The position numbers and the translations under genes were made by a program. Below the pieces are notes generated by a model. That model searched no databases and was not told the origin of the DNA. It was given only the letters and a program-made list of their open reading frames with translations. Source: Porphyromonas levii DSM 23370 (GTDB lineage Bacteria > Bacteroidota > Bacteroidia > Bacteroidales > Porphyromonadaceae). From it: a stretch of 64,000 bases of DNA. The stretch spans positions 1-64,000 of the forward strand of contig NZ_KB904204.1 of assembly GCF_000379925.1 (NCBI RefSeq), given 5' to 3'. Below, in pieces: positions 44,660 to 56,456 of the stretch (the first letter of the stretch is position 1; every line of letters starts with the position of its first letter).

Positions 44660-46043
44660 TTATTTTCTACTCAGTAAGGCATCGTATGCCGCTTTGCGCT
44701 CCAGCACTTGCTCTACATACTTGGTGGTCTCTCTACCCCTCAGGTAGCCATTACGGACAACCGCATCATTGTAGTACTCTGGGTTGCTCTTCAGAATAAT
44801 AAATTGCCTCACCCCTCCGTTCCAAATGGTATCTGGGGCATTGTGTTTGCGTGCCAACCGCATCGCATCTAAGACATGCCCTGCACCAGCATTGTATCCT
44901 GCCAAGGTGAAGTAAAGCCTCTGTAATGGATCCTTCACTTCCGAAAAATACCTATAGGTATCCATCAGCACATCCACAGAGACACGTACCGACACTTCTG
45001 GCTGTAACAACTGTGCCTTGCTAGCACCATGAGAGCGTCCAGTACTCGGCATAATGCCCATTAGTCCTCTTGCCCCACTCCAACCGACAACGTTGCTCCT
45101 GAACGTACTCTCTTGATAGGCAATAGCCGCAAGCAAAGTCCATGCCCATGGTGTACGCTTGGCTTCAGACTTAAATATATTATCATAGACCGAGATAGCT
45201 CCGCGCTCCAAAGCTACCTTAAGGGGCTTCTTAGTATTGCCTATGATAAATTGCCTCAAATGGCTATTCTGCTCCTTTAGCTCTGAGTAATGGCGAATCT
45301 TCTCGGGAGCCAAGAGATAGGTATCTAGTCGCTCTACCATTTCGCTATTGCCCTTAGCAACAGCCCAACTATAACGGATAGGAGCGCTCACCAAGAGACT
45401 ATTATCCAGACTAGGGTAGAAGAGCTTCATGCTACTAGCTAGCTCTTTGCCTGCTATCGCATACTTTATGCTATCCACCTGAGCCATCTTCAAGAGTATT
45501 TCCTCTATACTGAGGGTGTCTGGAATAGTTATATTTATTGGGTACCCTATCTCCTCTTCTATCTAGCTCCCCTGCGCTACCATACTCTGTCCACACATCT
45601 TTCCCAGCAATCTCAGAGAGGGAATGAACCACAGACCCCTTCTTCTGCACCAATACAAGCGAAGTAGTATCTACAATACCGCCGAAGTCAAAAGCCTCCG
45701 TATTGGCTTTGGTCATAGGAATAGGGGTAATACACAAATCTACTTTACCCTCAGATACCCAATTGAGAAGGCTATCGGTACTTTTCGCAATATGAATATC
45801 TAGAGCCAACTGGTGTGCTTGAGCAAAGTCGACAACCTTTTGGTACTCTTGACCCATAGTCTCCCCTCGGTATAGGTAGAAATCCTGTGGCGAAGTCATT
45901 GTCGCAATCCTAAGCGTATCCGACTCCTCTATCTCTGCCCACGAGCGAAAAAAAATCCTCTCACTCTCGGTAGTCTCTGTTGTGTCATCACAGGCGACCA
46001 AGAGTAAGAGGAAGGGTATCAATAAGAGTATTCTATTCTTCAT
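44660..46043 (-). pseudogene. mltF: MltF-like lytic transglycosylase, frameshifted
   Basis: Two minus-strand frames make one protein. The first (46043 to about 45560) has a lipobox (LLLLVACDD) and an SBP_bac_3-type periplasmic binding domain (LRIATMTSPQDFYLYRGETMGQEYQ). The second (about 45560 to 44660) has the end of that domain and a GEWL/SLT catalytic domain with catalytic Glu in AIAYQESTF, then GWSGARGLMGIMPST and LAGYNAGAGHVLDA. Homology moves from one frame to the other near 45545-45563, in a purine-rich stretch (AGAAGAGGAGATAGGG). The shift is +1, meaning one extra or two missing bases. It may be a real mutation, an assembly error or a programmed shift. Intact, it would cleave peptidoglycan at the outer membrane. 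The ATG overlaps the upstream methyltransferase stop by 4 bp. Confidence 0.85.
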
Positions 46044-48506: not shown

Positions 48507-48625
48507 GCTAAAATCCCCCACATAGAGGGCGCATTTGGAAAGCAATCCAGGGCAATCCTATGTACAACCCCTACCAAGGAACCGTTTGCCCGAGATTAGC
48601 TATTGGTACTCTACCGAGCGGCTTC

Positions 48626-48711
48626 AGTCTCTCCCGGGAGGGACTGGAGTTCCTCCCGGGAAAAACTAGAGTCTCTCGCGGGAGAAACTGGAGTTTATAG
48701 CGGGAGAAACT
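48626..48711. repeat. Four-copy 22-bp GC-rich palindrome array
   Basis: Four 20-bp units with partial dyad symmetry lie at 48626-48645, 48648-48667, 48670-48689 and 48692-48711, separated by GG, AG and GG. The first reads AGTCTCTCCCGGGAGGGACT and is nearly perfect; later copies keep the AGT/ACT ends and CGGGA core with mismatches. The period is 22 bp. It has the same number of copies, length and period class as the arrays at 34 and 60 kb, but a different sequence. Confidence 0.85.
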
Positions 48712-48823: not shown

Positions 48824-48859
48824 CAGAGCTACGACAGGAAATGCCCCGCCGTAGCTCTG
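48824..48859 (-). terminator. Terminator of the nuclease/TonB cluster
   Basis: A 10-bp perfect stem (CAGAGCTACG at 48824-48833 with 48850-48859) and a U-rich minus-strand tail lie 18 bp after the last gene of the cluster. Confidence 0.85.
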
Positions 48860-48876: not shown

Positions 48877-49947
48877 TTAGCGCTGTTGCACTAGGTATAC
48901 AACCACAGGGAAGTGGTCACTATAACCATCGATAAAAGAATTGTCCTGAAAGGTACGATGTGGATAACCTTTACGTTTGCCCTCCTGTGTAACTAGGAAA
49001 TCACGGTTAAACACTTCCATCTTCCAAAGCCTCAGTTTTTGATCATCGGTAAGTAACCCCTTAGATACTATCATCTGGTCGAAGAAGTTCCAGCTGTCTT
49101 GATAGACCAGCGTACCAATACCCTTCTCCAATAGCGATGCTGCGGGATTGTAAAGTCCTTGGGCACCGACCTCGCTCCTCAACTTCTTGGCATTGAGAAC
49201 CTCTGTCACGCTCCTATTGGTAGGGTCATCATTGAAGTCACCCATCATGATAATCTTTGCATTGGGCTCTTCTTGGTATATCTTATCCATAATCTGCTTA
49301 GAGAGGCGTGCCGCAGCTAAGCGAAGGGGCTCAGAAGCGCCACCACCATAGCGACTAGGCCAGTGGACTACAATGAAGTGCACCTTCTCACCAGCAATGT
49401 AGCCATACGCATGAAGCTGATCACGGGTAACGAAATCGGGCTGTTCTTCCCACTTAAGAGTATGGTACTCATAACCCTCAAGGGTAAAGATATTAGGATT
49501 ATACAATGCACCTACATCAATACCTCTACGGTCGGGACCATCTTCGTGCACCACCTTGAGCTCCATACCTTTTACCGCTTCCCGTTGTGTAAGATCCTCA
49601 AGGACTCTCCTATTTTCGACCTCAGCAACACCTATAAAAGCAGCACCGTATGGTGTTACCTCCTTCCCTAGAGAGCCGAGAACGCGAGCCAGATTATCGA
49701 GCTTACGCTCATACTGAATCTGAGTCCAGCGATAGGACCCAGTGGGTAGAAAGTCGTCATCCCCCGTATTATTGGGATCATCGTCGCAATCAAAGAGATT
49801 CTCTAGATTGTAAAATCCTACTGCGTAGGCGTTGTACTGCTTGCCGTCACTATTACGGGCAACTTGCTTGGTGGAGCCACAGCTCCCCAAGACAAGCGCC
49901 GTAATAACAACGATAATGGCACGCCACGTGTACAGTGTCTTCCTCAT
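48877..49947 (-). CDS. Endonuclease/exonuclease/phosphatase-family lipoprotein
   Basis: This 356-residue protein has a lipoprotein signal (LVLGSCGS, Cys at about residue 23) and an EEP (DNase I-like) domain. Metal and catalytic motifs are present: NLENLFDCDDDP, GVAEVENRRVLEDL with the metal-binding Glu, the His of IVVHWPSRYGG, MGDFNDDPTNRSV and the final SDHFPVVVYL. Family members cut DNA or RNA or remove phosphate from lipids and nucleotides. Surface or periplasmic location, and the three preceding genes (DUF5689-type lipoprotein, TonB receptor, NUC endonuclease), suggest nucleic acid breakdown. It lies 8 bp after the DUF5689-type gene. Confidence 0.9.
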   Translation of the reverse strand: MRKTLYTWRAIIVVITALVLGSCGSTKQVARNSDGKQYNAYAVGFYNLENLFDCDDDPNNTGDDDFLPTGSYRWTQIQYERKLDNLARVLGSLGKEVTPYGAAFIGVAEVENRRVLEDLTQREAVKGMELKVVHEDGPDRRGIDVGALYNPNIFTLEGYEYHTLKWEEQPDFVTRDQLHAYGYIAGEKVHFIVVHWPSRYGGGASEPLRLAAARLSKQIMDKIYQEEPNAKIIMMGDFNDDPTNRSVTEVLNAKKLRSEVGAQGLYNPAASLLEKGIGTLVYQDSWNFFDQMIVSKGLLTDDQKLRLWKMEVFNRDFLVTQEGKRKGYPHRTFQDNSFIDGYSDHFPVVVYLVQQR

Positions 49948-49955
49948 ACCCTTAC

Positions 49956-51923
49956 TTACTCAAAACTGATATTATCAATGTAAAGATCGTAAGCGGACTT
50001 GCTACCGTACTTGAAGGAAATCAGGTCTTTACCCACCTCTGTTGGAAGTGTCATTAACTGACCGTTGATAAGAGCTGTAAGATCTAGCGTAATCTTGGTC
50101 CAATTACCAACATTTATAGTGCCTTTGTAGTCGTTCTTTGTAACACCAGTTATCTGCTTAGCTCCATTTACATCTCCTAAGTTATAATTTACATATCCTG
50201 CTGGCTTTCTTTCTTTAGTCTTACTGTCATAGTAGGTAATCTTAGGATTCGTATTAAAGACATTGATAGATAGAGACTTGTCAGACTTACCCTTGATATA
50301 GAAAGTAATCTTCTTAACCTTTTTCATATCAATACCTTTAGGTACTTTGGCAGTAAAGATATAGCCATTCTGCGTATCAGTTGTACCTGACAACTGAAGT
50401 GCTCCTGAGCCATCTATTCCACCTGTAGCGGACTGCTTCCCAAACTTCAATCCATAAGTATTTAGACTACCGAGGAAAGCATTCCAATCATTAAAGTCAG
50501 AACCTGGGAAGAGCAGAGCACCAGGGGTTGGATCTGGTTGTGGATCTGGCTTTGGCTGTGGAGCAGGCTCAGTACCACCAGCAGCGAGCTTACCACCTTC
50601 ACTGGTGACCTTTAGGTTCTTAATCTGCCACTGACCAGAACTAGCATCGGTACAAACGTACTTATATGCAAAAACGACTTTAGACTGTCCGAGAACTGAT
50701 GCTGGGAGCACGATATCTCCACTCATTACAATCGTCCAATTGTTGCCTGCTGGATATACTGGAATTTCTACCTGTGTCCAAGTAGCATCAGCAACCTTTC
50801 CTGTATAGTTAGTAGAGACCCAAAGAGTCTGTTCCTGCTTCATCTTACTTACATCACCTTTATTGATGGTGTGTTGGAATGACAAAGATATACTCTTAGC
50901 ACTAGTAAGATCGAATGCAGGTGAAATAAGCCAGTCTTCATTAGGGTTGTTTTTACCGCCATTGAAACCAGACATACTAACATTCTTGTACTTAGTATCA
51001 ACCTTCCATACTTCATTACCCAGGATACTAACAGCAGTCATCTTGCCCATATCTGCAGCGAAGGTCTCGGCATAGATAACATTACCGGCAGGAGGATTAG
51101 GGTTTACTTCTCCGCCTGTGATAGGATCCTTACCGGTGAAGCCAGAACAATCATCAGCGGTACGAATAAAGAGCTGATAATCTTTGTTGAACTTAGAGAG
51201 AATACCTACGACAGTACCGTTGCCCTTAGGCAAAACATCGTTGGCGAAGCTAGCATATTTACTATTACGCACAATGAGTTTCTTGCCAGTGGTATCCTTG
51301 AGCGTACGGTTGACAGCGTTCTGAGCTTGATCACCATAAGTAGCAGTACCACCTAGCTCGAAATACACATTCTCCAACTTGATAAGCGTACCCACCATAT
51401 TATCGGAGAACTGAGCGATAGTTGTCGTCTTGGGCTTAGCCTTCTCAGCATCTGGTCGCTTATCTCGTAGGATCTGCTTCTTCACAACCTCATAGGGGAT
51501 GCGATTACTTTGGGTATCTTTCATTCCTATCTGAGTCACGCCGCCATAGCTCGTAGCAGCAAGACCTTGTAGCTTGATGAATACCTCCTGACCTACTTGG
51601 TAGTCGTTGGAAATATTATTCTGGTCGATACCGATGGAGATACCACCTGTAGCATCCTGTACGTAGATCTGCTTATAGATATTACCAGATACATCATTGC
51701 CCACTACAACAGCGCGGATGGCCAAGTTGTCCTCGATTATCTGACCTTCCTTAGGTACTTTCTTGAACTTATCCTTGTACTCAGCAATAGTGATCACTTT
51801 CTCATCACCAGGTGTCACTGTAGGATCAGCTAGCAGTGGCGCATCGTATTTACGCTCGCAAGATGCGAAACCTAACCCTAGCAGGGCAGCGAGCGAAATA
51901 AGTGACAATCTACTTAGTTTCAT
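49956..51923 (-). CDS. DUF5689/choice-of-anchor-type surface lipoprotein
   Basis: About 655 residues. A lipoprotein signal (GLGFASCERK) precedes a DUF5689-like region (about 40-270) whose segment EDNLAIRAVVVGNDVSGNIYKQ, then VGQEVFIKLQG, reads like an OB fold. A choice-of-anchor-J-like sandwich follows (about 285-450, EDWLISPAFDLTSAKSISLSF), then a Pro/Asp linker (PQPKPDPQPDPTPG) and a C-terminal jelly-roll (about 470-655). It occupies the SusD position behind a TonB receptor, so I infer it captures ligand at the surface. OB-like folds occur with secreted nucleases, consistent with nucleic acid binding. ATG 51923 was chosen for its signal peptide. Confidence 0.82.
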   Translation of the reverse strand: MKLSRLSLISLAALLGLGFASCERKYDAPLLADPTVTPGDEKVITIAEYKDKFKKVPKEGQIIEDNLAIRAVVVGNDVSGNIYKQIYVQDATGGISIGIDQNNISNDYQVGQEVFIKLQGLAATSYGGVTQIGMKDTQSNRIPYEVVKKQILRDKRPDAEKAKPKTTTIAQFSDNMVGTLIKLENVYFELGGTATYGDQAQNAVNRTLKDTTGKKLIVRNSKYASFANDVLPKGNGTVVGILSKFNKDYQLFIRTADDCSGFTGKDPITGGEVNPNPPAGNVIYAETFAADMGKMTAVSILGNEVWKVDTKYKNVSMSGFNGGKNNPNEDWLISPAFDLTSAKSISLSFQHTINKGDVSKMKQEQTLWVSTNYTGKVADATWTQVEIPVYPAGNNWTIVMSGDIVLPASVLGQSKVVFAYKYVCTDASSGQWQIKNLKVTSEGGKLAAGGTEPAPQPKPDPQPDPTPGALLFPGSDFNDWNAFLGSLNTYGLKFGKQSATGGIDGSGALQLSGTTDTQNGYIFTAKVPKGIDMKKVKKITFYIKGKSDKSLSINVFNTNPKITYYDSKTKERKPAGYVNYNLGDVNGAKQITGVTKNDYKGTINVGNWTKITLDLTALINGQLMTLPTEVGKDLISFKYGSKSAYDLYIDNISFE

Positions 51924-51951
51924 ATTCGTATTTGTATTCTTAATTTTTATA

Positions 51952-54705
51952 TTACCAATTATAGCTTGCATTGAGGAAGAAGTTGATCCCCTGCATATAG
52001 TAGTGCTTATTTGTAAACCTCTCGGGATGATCTAGGTTGATACGCCCTTGCTCGAAACCTCCTACGCGTACGTTCTTATTATTGAGAAGGTTGGATACTG
52101 AGAAGTTGAAGTTGATACGGTCTCTATTCTTTAGGTAGAGAATTTTACCGATACTTAGATCCATGGTAAAGCCCGCTGCAAAACGCTCCTGAGTAGTCGT
52201 CTGTACAAAGGAGTCATATAGCTTAGGATCGTGACCTGGCTGACCTGGAGCTACTACCGAAGTATAGTTGGAAGCCATCCTACGAATATGAGCAACGTCG
52301 ATATGATTGTATCCAAAACCATTGAAGTTGACATTGAAGAACCAGTACTTATAGAAGTAACCAACACCGAAGGTACCTAGCACCTGTGGTACACCACCAA
52401 TGTATAGGTTCTTCAAATATACCTTTTCTTCTTGGTTTTTGATACGACCATTGGTACTATTGAGCACACCCATTGGATCATTGCTATAGTAGTACTGAGC
52501 GGCAGTACCGATAAACTCAAGGGTAAGTGCATCGGTAGGACGATACTCTAGTCCTAGCTCCAATCCTTGGTGCACCTTATTCATACCGTATAGCGTATGG
52601 AGGGTGAAGGTACGCTCGCTATCATTATAGTATGCTACCTTCTTCATATCATCCCAGAAGCCGGTATAGAATGCTGAGATACGCCCTCTAAACTTAGGCA
52701 CAGAGAAGATATAATTAAGGTCGAAGTTAGCTATCTGCTTGCTCTTGAGTACTGGCACTACTTCGTCTGTAATATCAGGAGAGATGTACATCTCACGCTC
52801 TAGCTGAGGGCGATTGAGGTAGGATGCATTGGCAGTAATGAAGTGACGACCATTAATCTTGTAAACTACTCCTGCCTTGACATCGAAATTGATAAAGGCG
52901 TGTAGCTTGCCCTTACCAAAGGAATTATCGGGATAACGACCATTCTTCATCATACCCTCTCTTCTGATAGTATTGAGGGCTAGTTTGGCTCCGTAGTAGA
53001 AGTCTACCTTATCGTACTTATGTTGGTTCTGCGCCCATATACCTGCGTTATAGATATGGTAGCGGTAATCATAACCAAACACATCGCCCTTGGAGACACG
53101 GCGATCAGGTCTATTGAGGTCGTTTTGGCGCACTTCGTGGTTCCCCGCAAAGTCTCTCTCGGCATACTTGTCGTTATCCAACAAGTAGTCTGCGCCCAAG
53201 AGGTCATCTACGGTCTTGAAACGCTTAGACTGTGAGTACCTAAACTCTAGTCCACCATCAAACGACAAGGACTGAGAGATCTGCCTATTGAGGGTGCTAC
53301 TAAGGGCTATCTCGCCTAAGTCACTCCTCTGCTCCTCTACCATATAGATAGCCGAGCCATTACCTTGGAGATTATTGAGGTGGTTCACTTCATAGAGACG
53401 ATCCCAATTAATCTGAGAGATCTCACCGCTCTTCCATAGAGACTCATAGTAGTGCTGTACTACTGGAGCACCATCGAAGTAACTAGGGAGATAGCGGTAG
53501 TAATCAGGGCGAGGGTCGCTACCGTTGTACCAGTTGAGCGAACTACGACCATACCTATTGTAGTGGGCAGCTATACCTGAAGTAAGAGTAGTCCGATAAT
53601 CGGGCTTCCATACATGAGAGAGGATTGCTGTAGGGTCCCAGCTCTTCACCACTCGGGCATTGCGCTTCTTGCCATTCTGCCATCCCCAGTTGGGATTGTA
53701 TAGATTATCACCCACGAGCTTTACTGCCTCATTGACCGACGAGCCCTGTTGACCGCGCTCTACTGGCGAACCGAAAGTGATAAAACTAAGACTGTGTCTG
53801 CCATTGTCCCACACCTTTTCTACGCCCAACATATAGGAGATGTTCTTGTAGAATACACCTGGGATTGCGCCTTCGTGTGCATATCTTCCGCCGATAGCAC
53901 CAGAGATTGCCCAACCATTATCCATCAATCCGGTATTGTAGCTTAGGATAGAACGGAGGTAATAATTGCGGTTGGTACCAGAGACGGTAAACTTACCACC
54001 TCGGGTATAGTTGGCTGGGCGCATATTGATATTCTCCGAACCACCTATATCACCGAAGGAGAATGGGGAAGCACCCATATAATTAATGCGGTTCCCATTG
54101 CGCGTCATATCATTGAGTGCTCCTACAGAGGAGTAGTTGAATACCCCGCGGACACCCTCATTGAAGTTGATTCCATTGATATACCTCTGCTCGTATTGGC
54201 TATCATAACCACGTGTACGATGGCGGAACTGTGAAAATTGGAAGCCCGCATTCTGTAAGTAGACATCGTTGGAGAAGATAACCATTGTATTGGCGCTCTG
54301 CCCCTGACCCTCATCATCTATCTGATCAAGGTCGATATTGTCTACAATACCCACGAAGTGTGCATTATCCTTCATCACATTCTGTACCATCACAATGGTA
54401 CCCACATCATTTGTACGATTCGCCGAGATCTCCACTTCTCGTTCGACTGTAGCGTGGAGCGTAGAGGTGAGGACTAGCTTATCCTTTCCGCCCTCGACGT
54501 TGTAGAATACAAAGCTACCATCCGCTCCCGTGGTAGTCCGCTGATTATTATTCAGCAGTGTTACCACTATCCCGCCTATCGGATGCTCTGTACCACTATC
54601 CTTCACTACACCCCGGAGCGATGTGCCCGACTGTGCGCTAGCAGAGAGTAGAGAGACCGACAGCAGCGTGCAGACCATAGCCATAAGTCTATAAAGCCTT
54701 TGCAT
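51952..54705 (-). CDS. TonB-dependent receptor of the nuclease cluster
   Basis: This 917-residue outer-membrane transporter has a signal peptide (to about residue 24), a carboxypeptidase-regulatory-like domain (about 28-110, LRGVVKDSGTEHPIGGIVVTLL), a divergent plug (about 125-235, QSANTMVIFSNDVYLQNAGF) and a large barrel ending in FFLNASYNW, with the C-terminal aromatic typical of barrels. The plug lacks the usual EVVRGG phrase of siderophore receptors. It sits between a NUC-type endonuclease (79 bp upstream) and a DUF5689-type lipoprotein (28 bp downstream). I infer import of a product of extracellular nuclease action, such as oligonucleotides, nucleosides or phosphate. The ligand is unproven. 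Confidence 0.88.
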   Translation of the reverse strand: MQRLYRLMAMVCTLLSVSLLSASAQSGTSLRGVVKDSGTEHPIGGIVVTLLNNNQRTTTGADGSFVFYNVEGGKDKLVLTSTLHATVEREVEISANRTNDVGTIVMVQNVMKDNAHFVGIVDNIDLDQIDDEGQGQSANTMVIFSNDVYLQNAGFQFSQFRHRTRGYDSQYEQRYINGINFNEGVRGVFNYSSVGALNDMTRNGNRINYMGASPFSFGDIGGSENINMRPANYTRGGKFTVSGTNRNYYLRSILSYNTGLMDNGWAISGAIGGRYAHEGAIPGVFYKNISYMLGVEKVWDNGRHSLSFITFGSPVERGQQGSSVNEAVKLVGDNLYNPNWGWQNGKKRNARVVKSWDPTAILSHVWKPDYRTTLTSGIAAHYNRYGRSSLNWYNGSDPRPDYYRYLPSYFDGAPVVQHYYESLWKSGEISQINWDRLYEVNHLNNLQGNGSAIYMVEEQRSDLGEIALSSTLNRQISQSLSFDGGLEFRYSQSKRFKTVDDLLGADYLLDNDKYAERDFAGNHEVRQNDLNRPDRRVSKGDVFGYDYRYHIYNAGIWAQNQHKYDKVDFYYGAKLALNTIRREGMMKNGRYPDNSFGKGKLHAFINFDVKAGVVYKINGRHFITANASYLNRPQLEREMYISPDITDEVVPVLKSKQIANFDLNYIFSVPKFRGRISAFYTGFWDDMKKVAYYNDSERTFTLHTLYGMNKVHQGLELGLEYRPTDALTLEFIGTAAQYYYSNDPMGVLNSTNGRIKNQEEKVYLKNLYIGGVPQVLGTFGVGYFYKYWFFNVNFNGFGYNHIDVAHIRRMASNYTSVVAPGQPGHDPKLYDSFVQTTTQERFAAGFTMDLSIGKILYLKNRDRINFNFSVSNLLNNKNVRVGGFEQGRINLDHPERFTNKHYYMQGINFFLNASYNW

Positions 54706-54784
54706 TTCTCTTTCTTTTCTAATTAGTAAATTATTATTCTGTTAACTATGTTATCTTCAACTGATGTATACCGAACTCCCAAGT

Positions 54785-56389
54785 CTACCAGTCGCGACTA
54801 TTATTGAGACTCTTCACATGCGCAGCTTCCGACTCGGGGAGATGGGGGAAGAACTTCACGCCCAACTCTTTCTCTAGTTGCTGCACTGTACAAGTAAAGT
54901 CTGACCACTTGCTCTTTGTATCGATATTAGGCATCTTAACCCCTATAGATATCCATTTACCCCCTTTCTTCTTTAGGAGCACCTTCCAAGTATGGGTAGG
55001 GATAGGGCACTGCTTATCTCCATCCCTATCGGTAACGGTACCATTATTATGGGAGAATATAGGGCCACATGCTACATACATCGTATCGGTCGGATTTGCC
55101 CGCTTTGCCCAGCTATTCTCCTTATTCTCTAGCACATTCCAGATACCACTATTCTGAGATTGCTTCTGTGGTACCATATTGGAGTAGTAGAAGGTCGTCT
55201 TATTCAACTCTATTGAAGCAGTCCGTTGGTTACTTGCCAACATGTGCCCACGACTAAAGTCTAGCTCCCTAGGGCGATAGCTCCTGGATAAATTCATTTG
55301 ATACCTCTTGGGGACATCGGGGTCATACACCCAAGCATCGTTTCCTATCACTTTATCAGCCCTACCTGAGTTACCTACACAATCATGATATAGTGGATAG
55401 GCAACAATATAGGGTTGGAACTTATCCTGACTAAAGTAAACCGTATAGTTGCGCCGAACACCTCCTAAAGTAGACCCACCACCGAACCAAGCATCGGGAG
55501 CATTGTGCTGTACCACATACATATCTGTCATAGAACCATTCTGCACCAACACCTGCTCCATATACGAAGTACTGTAGACCAATGCTCCCGCTTGGACTAC
55601 AGCGGCACCATTCTCTAGCGATACCGTATAGCCATAATACTTCCCTCCTTCCACAGACTTAGAAGAAGACAACTTAGCATCGTATTGGTTACCATCGTGC
55701 TCTATCAGAATCCTCATGCCATCAAGTCTCTGTCCTGGCATCAAATAAGTATGGTACTCGCTACCACGGTGCACCAAAGAGAGGGAGGCAACCTCCGAAT
55801 CTGTAGTGAAGCGACCACTCGTCACGTCTAGTACACCTGTGGTAAGGACATCTAGCACGCTTACCTTTGCTGAGGTGCTAGGGGCAGAAGTCTTAGAGGT
55901 ATCGAGTGAGATACGGAGCTGCCCTAGCTTATGTGTAAAGTTGAGCGCCAGATTAGGCTCTGCATTGGTAACCGTACCCTTAGCCCAAAGCAATGGTTGG
56001 TTGTTTTCCTTAGAAAGGTCTACCCTCACAGCCCCATCTGTAGCCGAGGGATTGTATGGAGCATAAGCCCGAACAGCATGTGCTTCGATACCGAATGGAA
56101 TCGTAATCACACCTCCTGTAAAACGAGTACCATTGCCCTGCCCATTTGCCACATACCGTACATTATTCGCCTTTAGTGTAGTAGAGAATACCCCGATAGC
56201 GTCATCACTCGCCCAAGATTCACCTAGACTACCAGGCTGAATCACTACAGACGATTCCCCTAGCATAGAAGTGGTAAGCCCTAACTCCATATTCCCATTG
56301 TGAGCCTCCACCTCCTTTTTGCTCGAACAAAAAGAAAATCCCATGGCGAAAGCGATAATAACCAAAGGCAATGCTCTTGAACCCTTCAT
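54785..56389 (-). CDS. Exported DNA/RNA non-specific endonuclease (NUC family)
   Basis: This 534-residue protein has a signal with a lipobox-like FSFCSSKK (Cys at about residue 21). A fimbrillin-like beta domain follows (about 30-265, SDDAIGVFST, AYAPYNPSATDG), then the beta-beta-alpha-metal NUC domain (about 290-530). The catalytic His is His382 in FSRGHMLAS, and the Mg-binding Asn is Asn404 in YSNMVPQ, followed by GIWNVLENKE. Such enzymes cut DNA and RNA without sequence preference. Fusion to a fimbrillin-like domain is unusual and may serve as a surface anchor. It is the first gene of the cluster, with its own -7 box. Confidence 0.88.
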   Translation of the reverse strand: MKGSRALPLVIIAFAMGFSFCSSKKEVEAHNGNMELGLTTSMLGESSVVIQPGSLGESWASDDAIGVFSTTLKANNVRYVANGQGNGTRFTGGVITIPFGIEAHAVRAYAPYNPSATDGAVRVDLSKENNQPLLWAKGTVTNAEPNLALNFTHKLGQLRISLDTSKTSAPSTSAKVSVLDVLTTGVLDVTSGRFTTDSEVASLSLVHRGSEYHTYLMPGQRLDGMRILIEHDGNQYDAKLSSSKSVEGGKYYGYTVSLENGAAVVQAGALVYSTSYMEQVLVQNGSMTDMYVVQHNAPDAWFGGGSTLGGVRRNYTVYFSQDKFQPYIVAYPLYHDCVGNSGRADKVIGNDAWVYDPDVPKRYQMNLSRSYRPRELDFSRGHMLASNQRTASIELNKTTFYYSNMVPQKQSQNSGIWNVLENKENSWAKRANPTDTMYVACGPIFSHNNGTVTDRDGDKQCPIPTHTWKVLLKKKGGKWISIGVKMPNIDTKSKWSDFTCTVQQLEKELGVKFFPHLPESEAAHVKSLNNSRDW

Positions 56390-56448: not shown

Positions 56449-56456
56449 CAAAGGTA
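56449..56456 (-). promoter_or_regulatory. -7 box of the nuclease/TonB cluster
   Basis: The minus strand reads TACCTTTG, about 60 bp before the ATG of the NUC endonuclease. It is the only good promoter seen for the four-gene cluster. Confidence 0.55.

Follow-up and report, generated by a model that had tools for sequence, protein, structure and literature searches.

How Bacteroidota move DNA across the outer membrane is an unsettled question, and the described system closest to the locus reported here comes from Riemerella anatipestifer. A transposon screen for natural transformation in this species (PMC8459023) is the only paper naming DUF5689 that was found in our literature search. Markerless deletion of either RA0C_RS04915, which codes for a CarboxypepD_reg outer-membrane protein, or RA0C_RS04920, which codes for a protein with DUF5689 and DUF5017 domains, gave no transformants versus 5.4e-5 in the wild type, a loss below detection as for ComEC and RecA (PMC8459023). 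ComEC and a NamZ/DUF1343 protein are two other requirements for transformation in R. anatipestifer, and tonB mutants show lowered transformation, the effect of one tonB being confounded by iron. The enzyme making single strands was left unidentified by this study, in which deletion of RS04910 is not reported and nothing further is said of that gene (PMC8459023). RS04920 belongs to the NCBIfam family NF052645, named for R. anatipestifer M949_1556, and carries the NCBI annotation 'M949_1556 family lipoprotein'. The gene M949_1556 is known from antigenicity work, and the transformation role is absent from the family name. M949_1556 is reported to affect LPS/antigenicity, and therefore the transformation defect could be partly indirect. 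Porphyromonas gingivalis is also naturally competent, ComEA and ComEC being essential (PMC11532111).

Here we describe a locus of related composition in the window (the whole stretch of 64,000 nucleotides that was analysed) from Porphyromonas levii. Its four genes probably encode the outer-membrane stage of natural transformation in this member of the Porphyromonadaceae.

The operon and its transcription signals

Positions 48877-56389 of the window harbor four open reading frames, all on the minus strand and all confirmed as the nuclease, receptor, DUF5689 and EEP genes of the original prediction. The first, NUC (54785..56389, minus strand), codes for an exported lipoprotein-type protein in which a fimbrillin-like Mfa_like_1 domain is fused to a DNA/RNA non-specific endonuclease. 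It is followed by the gene of a TonB-dependent outer-membrane receptor with a CarboxypepD_reg N-terminus, a plug and a barrel (51952..54705, minus strand), an ortholog of R. anatipestifer RA0C_RS04915. The third gene (49956..51923, minus strand) codes for a DUF5689 and choice-of-anchor-J lipoprotein with an extra C-terminal domain, the counterpart of RA0C_RS04920 and a proposed DNA-capture lipoprotein. The last (48877..49947, minus strand) codes for a nuclease lipoprotein of the EEP family (Exo_endo_phos_3) that has no surface-export signal and is proposed to be a periplasmic DNA-processing enzyme. The intergenic gaps measure 79 bp, about 28 bp and 8 bp. The DUF5689 reading frame as listed reaches 51971, and its likely start was moved to residue 17 (window 51923) because the Met at this position is invariant in orthologs; the gene therefore does not overlap that of the receptor.

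A match to TAnnTTTG, the Bacteroidota -7 element, lies 60 bp upstream of the NUC start (TACCTTTG, 56449..56456, minus strand; a consensus match only), and a hairpin resembling an intrinsic terminator, AGAGCTACG...CGTAGCTCT then a T-run (GTTTT), was read in the sequence directly after the EEP gene (about 48825..48858, minus strand). These are candidates for the predicted single promoter and single terminator, and the four genes are likely transcribed as one unit, the single transcript being deduced from these signals. Reading for the Bacteroidota -7 element replaced a sigma-70 promoter and terminator scan, whose counts were near those of shuffles. Two other features were noted in this part of the window. 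Imperfect repeats of the type AGTTTCTCCCG(C/G)GAGAGACT form a short array between the EEP gene and the next gene (48600-48700, minus strand). In addition, an MltF-like gene encoding a solute-binding domain and, after it, a lytic transglycosylase domain (44660-46043, minus strand) is read in two frames, with a switch near 45470-45500, and is either disrupted or affected by a sequencing error.

Domains, folds and predicted locations of the four proteins

CarboxypepD_reg is the only Pfam match of the receptor, which has no match to the SusC/RagA family (TIGR04056). A sequence search returned no solved relative of its barrel; the AlphaFold model (mean pLDDT 85.9) shows a barrel with a plug inside, and its best Foldseek matches are TonB-dependent receptors. 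When the R. anatipestifer receptor was used as query against the window genome, only the window receptor was returned (30% identity, 4.1e-91). Moreover, in a tree of 40 receptors (IQ-TREE, LG+C20+F+G4), both proteins belong to the same clade, REC1, whose split from REC2 has 100/100 support. R. anatipestifer also carries a REC2 paralog (L220:5556-8159), which is present in the receptor deletion and yet does not rescue the mutant. An EEP gene adjoins REC2 in only two of the REC2 loci inspected. In L209 and L210, from genomes without REC1, an EEP nuclease comes after REC2, which makes REC2 a possible candidate for DNA uptake in the absence of REC1.

The protein encoded directly downstream of the receptor matches DUF5689 (1.7e-66) and also has a choice-of-anchor-J domain. 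It was searched in Pfam for a SusD-family domain, and only DUF5689 matched at E values up to 0.05. Against NF052645 it scores 160.6 bits, below the cut-off of 475, whereas the R. anatipestifer protein scores 599. The lipobox pattern is matched by 23 of 25 DUF5689 orthologs, the other two having a candidate Cys identified by eye, and many of them display an acidic stretch after this residue, for example CVKDDEFD, CVKEDFDEP and CERDYDAP. This stretch resembles K-(D/E)2, the export signal of surface lipoproteins (PMC5080379); the resemblance is weaker in the window copy, CERKYDAP. The signal sequences therefore suggest that the DUF5689 protein lies outside the cell. In its structural model (mean pLDDT 85.8), the anchor-J part matches sandwiches of the carbohydrate-binding type. 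The model also matches several HIN-200 chains, including complexes with dsDNA and ssDNA, at moderate similarity (E 1e-4 to 6e-4, probability 0.98-1.00). HIN-200 domains are tandem OB folds that bind DNA, and residues 83-149 and 196-268 of the model each contain at least five strands, as expected of two OB folds. In a VIA-align comparison, matches to the anchor-J domain took up the whole list (Z up to 16.6, 8jiy; gingipain adhesin domains), and the HIN-200 match could not be assigned to a residue range. The DUF5689 domain may therefore bear a moderate resemblance to the tandem-OB, DNA-binding HIN-200 domains.

Both nucleases harbor the expected catalytic residues. NUC matches Mfa_like_1 (2.4e-25) and Endonuclease_NS (3.9e-37), exceeds the PF01223 cut-off (128.5 bits versus 23) and possesses the RGH motif and the catalytic Asn; the RGH at residue 380 is aligned with EXOG, and the NMVPQ segment with the region of the EXOG catalytic Asn. 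The EEP protein matches Exo_endo_phos_3 (PF19580) over its full length (3.5e-111, 371.6 bits versus a cut-off of 27) and contains the motifs NLENL, EVEN, HWPS, GDFND and SDHF. Sequence search found no solved relative for it. Its assignment to the ExeM/NucH family NF033681 was rejected (18 bits versus a cut-off of 300). The EEP orthologs carry plain signal peptides or, in the genus of the window, a Cys with neutral or basic residues after it, which suggests a periplasmic location. The domain matches agree with the earlier view that every accessory protein of the locus fits nucleic-acid binding or cutting.

Conservation of the locus across Bacteroidia

Co-occurrence of the genes, the check put forward with the original prediction, revealed strong linkage. 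In a sample of 247 genomes of Bacteroidia, 52 have a clear receptor, and 40 of these 52 carry an EEP gene no more than 10 kb away from it (0.4 expected). EEP genes are also present in many genomes without the receptor (139 versus 57 of 247). Within the family of the window, 28 of 38 genomes harbor a DUF5689 gene, and the best such gene adjoins the receptor in 28 of 28; no DUF5689 gene was found in the receptor-less genomes among the 38. Clustering of the open reading frames of 23 loci outside the family identified only the receptor, DUF5689 and EEP as broadly recurrent, the next family being present in 6 of 23. As these loci were picked partly by their DUF5689 match, a cleaner test is provided by the class sample and its receptor-EEP count. 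The conserved core is therefore receptor-DUF5689-EEP and not all four genes.

The R. anatipestifer-type locus (L132, on a 2,164,087-bp contig of G335) has a receptor 93% identical to that of the locus in a named R. anatipestifer genome. Its order is comEC, two genes, EEP (minus strand), receptor (plus strand) and DUF5689 (plus strand), which fits the tags RS04895 (ComEC), RS04910, RS04915 and RS04920, and the domains agree with those described (PMC8459023). By gene counting, RS04910 would be the EEP nuclease. Identity between the window and R. anatipestifer is 26% for the DUF5689 proteins and 40% over 299 residues for the EEPs, which belong to the same EEP family.

The surface nuclease has a narrower distribution. 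In the window's family, 25 of the 30 receptor genomes have a PF01223 nuclease no more than 9 kb from the receptor (0.4 expected), and 25 of the 48 PF01223 nuclease genes of this family sit at the receptor locus. It is possible, if rather unlikely, that the receptor and the DUF5689 lipoprotein take up DNA while NUC is an independent passenger, a biofilm or NET DNase or a limiter of incoming DNA, co-transcribed by chance of descent. The distribution of NUC would fit such a passenger: at this locus it was found solely in the window's family and in a single further genome of the order (L100), its position varies (mostly upstream within the genus, but downstream in the sister genus), and so does its partner domain (Mfa_like or BACON). 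However, 25 of 30 genomes have retained NUC close to the receptor although its position shifts, which argues for functional coupling. Other arrangements were also observed. Diverged REC1 receptors at L071:6108-9752 and L072:5864-9635 have a NUC nuclease directly after them, in genomes without any DUF5689 gene. In three loci of the window's genus (L062:1366-3387, L063:9542-11002 and L064:4021-6090), an extra lipoprotein-like gene absent from the window lies between NUC and the receptor; in L062 it consists of Mfa_like and a weak DUF5017.

Concerning the later steps of transformation, ComEC is encoded in the window genome (G000:C32:32062-32856, 1.6e-50). A NamZ/DUF1343 protein is also present, a weak piece of evidence as the family is found in unrelated control genomes too. 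Co-occurrence of receptor and ComEC was uninformative, as every near-complete genome of the family has ComEC, whether or not it has the receptor. The genome G006, which we take to be P. gingivalis ATCC 33277, harbors ComEC, lacks any DUF5689 gene and has only a REC2 receptor (G006:C1:986932-989397; L213:7906-10506 in G006), without nuclease neighbours. REC2 was considered as a possible counterpart of this locus in P. gingivalis, where neither DUF5689 nor EEP lies beside it. P. gingivalis is competent without the pair, and competence in the family therefore does not everywhere require the receptor and the DUF5689 lipoprotein. In this species, the outer-membrane step must be a different one.

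Proposed function and comparison with known systems

Transformation as the probable role of the operon is drawn from its gene content, the orthology to transformation-essential genes of R. anatipestifer, the conserved linkage and the predicted locations and folds, the function itself being carried over from one distant species (26-40% identity). From these we infer DNA as the substrate in P. levii, and the following order of steps. The DUF5689 lipoprotein, with its putative tandem-OB, DNA-binding-like domain, would sit on the receptor at the cell surface and hold extracellular DNA. The NUC endonuclease, also at the surface, would cut long DNA and provide ends, and import through the receptor would be powered by TonB. 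The EEP nuclease may then trim the imported DNA in the periplasm or turn it toward single strands. Finally, ComEC, encoded elsewhere, would take one strand into the cytoplasm.

Surface capture followed by TonB-driven import, as proposed originally, is still the best reading of the locus; the purpose assigned to it has changed. The original prediction took the imported fragments as food. In a nutritional scheme of this kind, NUC would shred DNA or RNA at the surface, the DUF5689 lipoprotein and the receptor would import oligonucleotides by TonB, and EEP would degrade them in the periplasm for phosphate, nitrogen or bases. Two nucleases and a TonB receptor in one operon, with NUC linked to the receptor in most genomes of the family, speak for such scavenging, and a surface nuclease seems wasteful for transformation. 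However, transformation of R. anatipestifer depends on the orthologs of the receptor and DUF5689 genes (PMC8459023), and this process ends at ComEC and RecA rather than in the catabolism of nucleotides. In addition, no recurrent nucleotidase, phosphatase or nucleoside transporter was found at the locus by clustering of the 23 loci outside the family, and upp, at a distance of 4 kb, belongs to another gene group and not to the operon. A nutrient locus is thus improbable and less likely than natural transformation, which may nevertheless coexist with a nutritional side role. Least probable of all is that the pair serves another substrate or an envelope function and that the R. anatipestifer loss is an indirect effect of an altered surface structure: the reported effect of M949_1556, the namesake of the RS04920 family, on antigenicity/LPS and the competence of P. 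gingivalis without the pair would fit, whereas a loss as complete as for ComEC and RecA, the nuclease neighbours conserved across the class and the DNA-binding-like fold all argue against it. The original prediction is therefore partly supported, being right about a nucleic-acid acquisition locus and its parts, with transformation as the more likely purpose.

Beyond P. levii, we tentatively suggest that many Bacteroidota might take up transforming DNA via a dedicated TonB-dependent DNA receptor and a surface OB-fold lipoprotein instead of a type IV pilus/secretin. The linked EEP in the periplasm and NUC at the surface could then be dedicated processing enzymes for the missing step between double-stranded DNA outside and a single strand at ComEC. 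Throughout the class, the EEP gene repeatedly accompanies the pair, and one family adds a surface nuclease; these are concrete genes to delete and assay.

Several known systems share some of these features. Like SusCD polysaccharide-utilization loci, the operon combines a TonB receptor and its partner lipoprotein at the surface with a hydrolase acting there; in contrast to them, it has no SusC/RagA match and, as first noted in the original prediction, no SusD or glycosidase. Pfam searches found no glycoside hydrolase or lyase in it. Our literature search found no described nucleic-acid utilization locus of this make-up. Nuclease action accompanies DNA entry in competence, as with the competence nucleases EndA of Streptococcus pneumoniae and NucA of Bacillus subtilis, and EndA, like NUC, belongs to the non-specific nucleases of the beta-beta-alpha metal type. 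The envelope and anchoring are different in these bacteria, and a competence role of NUC and EEP is here a presumed one. The extracellular nucleases ExeM/NucH (NF033681) have in common with EEP the type of catalytic domain, by a weak match, and the REC2 receptors form the sister clade of the window receptor, without DUF5689 beside them.

The R. anatipestifer locus is the closest relative, with an orthologous REC1 receptor, an adjacent downstream lipoprotein with DUF5689 and choice-of-anchor-J/DUF5017, an EEP beside them and ComEC in the genome. It differs by a divergently oriented EEP gene whose product is not a lipoprotein, by comEC lying three genes beyond and by the absence of a NUC gene, whereas the window has four genes on one strand and ComEC on another contig. 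Contrary to the earlier statement that no described system of this exact composition was known, the receptor and DUF5689 pair is a described one (PMC8459023). The locus is thus a variant of a little-studied and mechanistically open system, in which the involvement of two linked nucleases is new.
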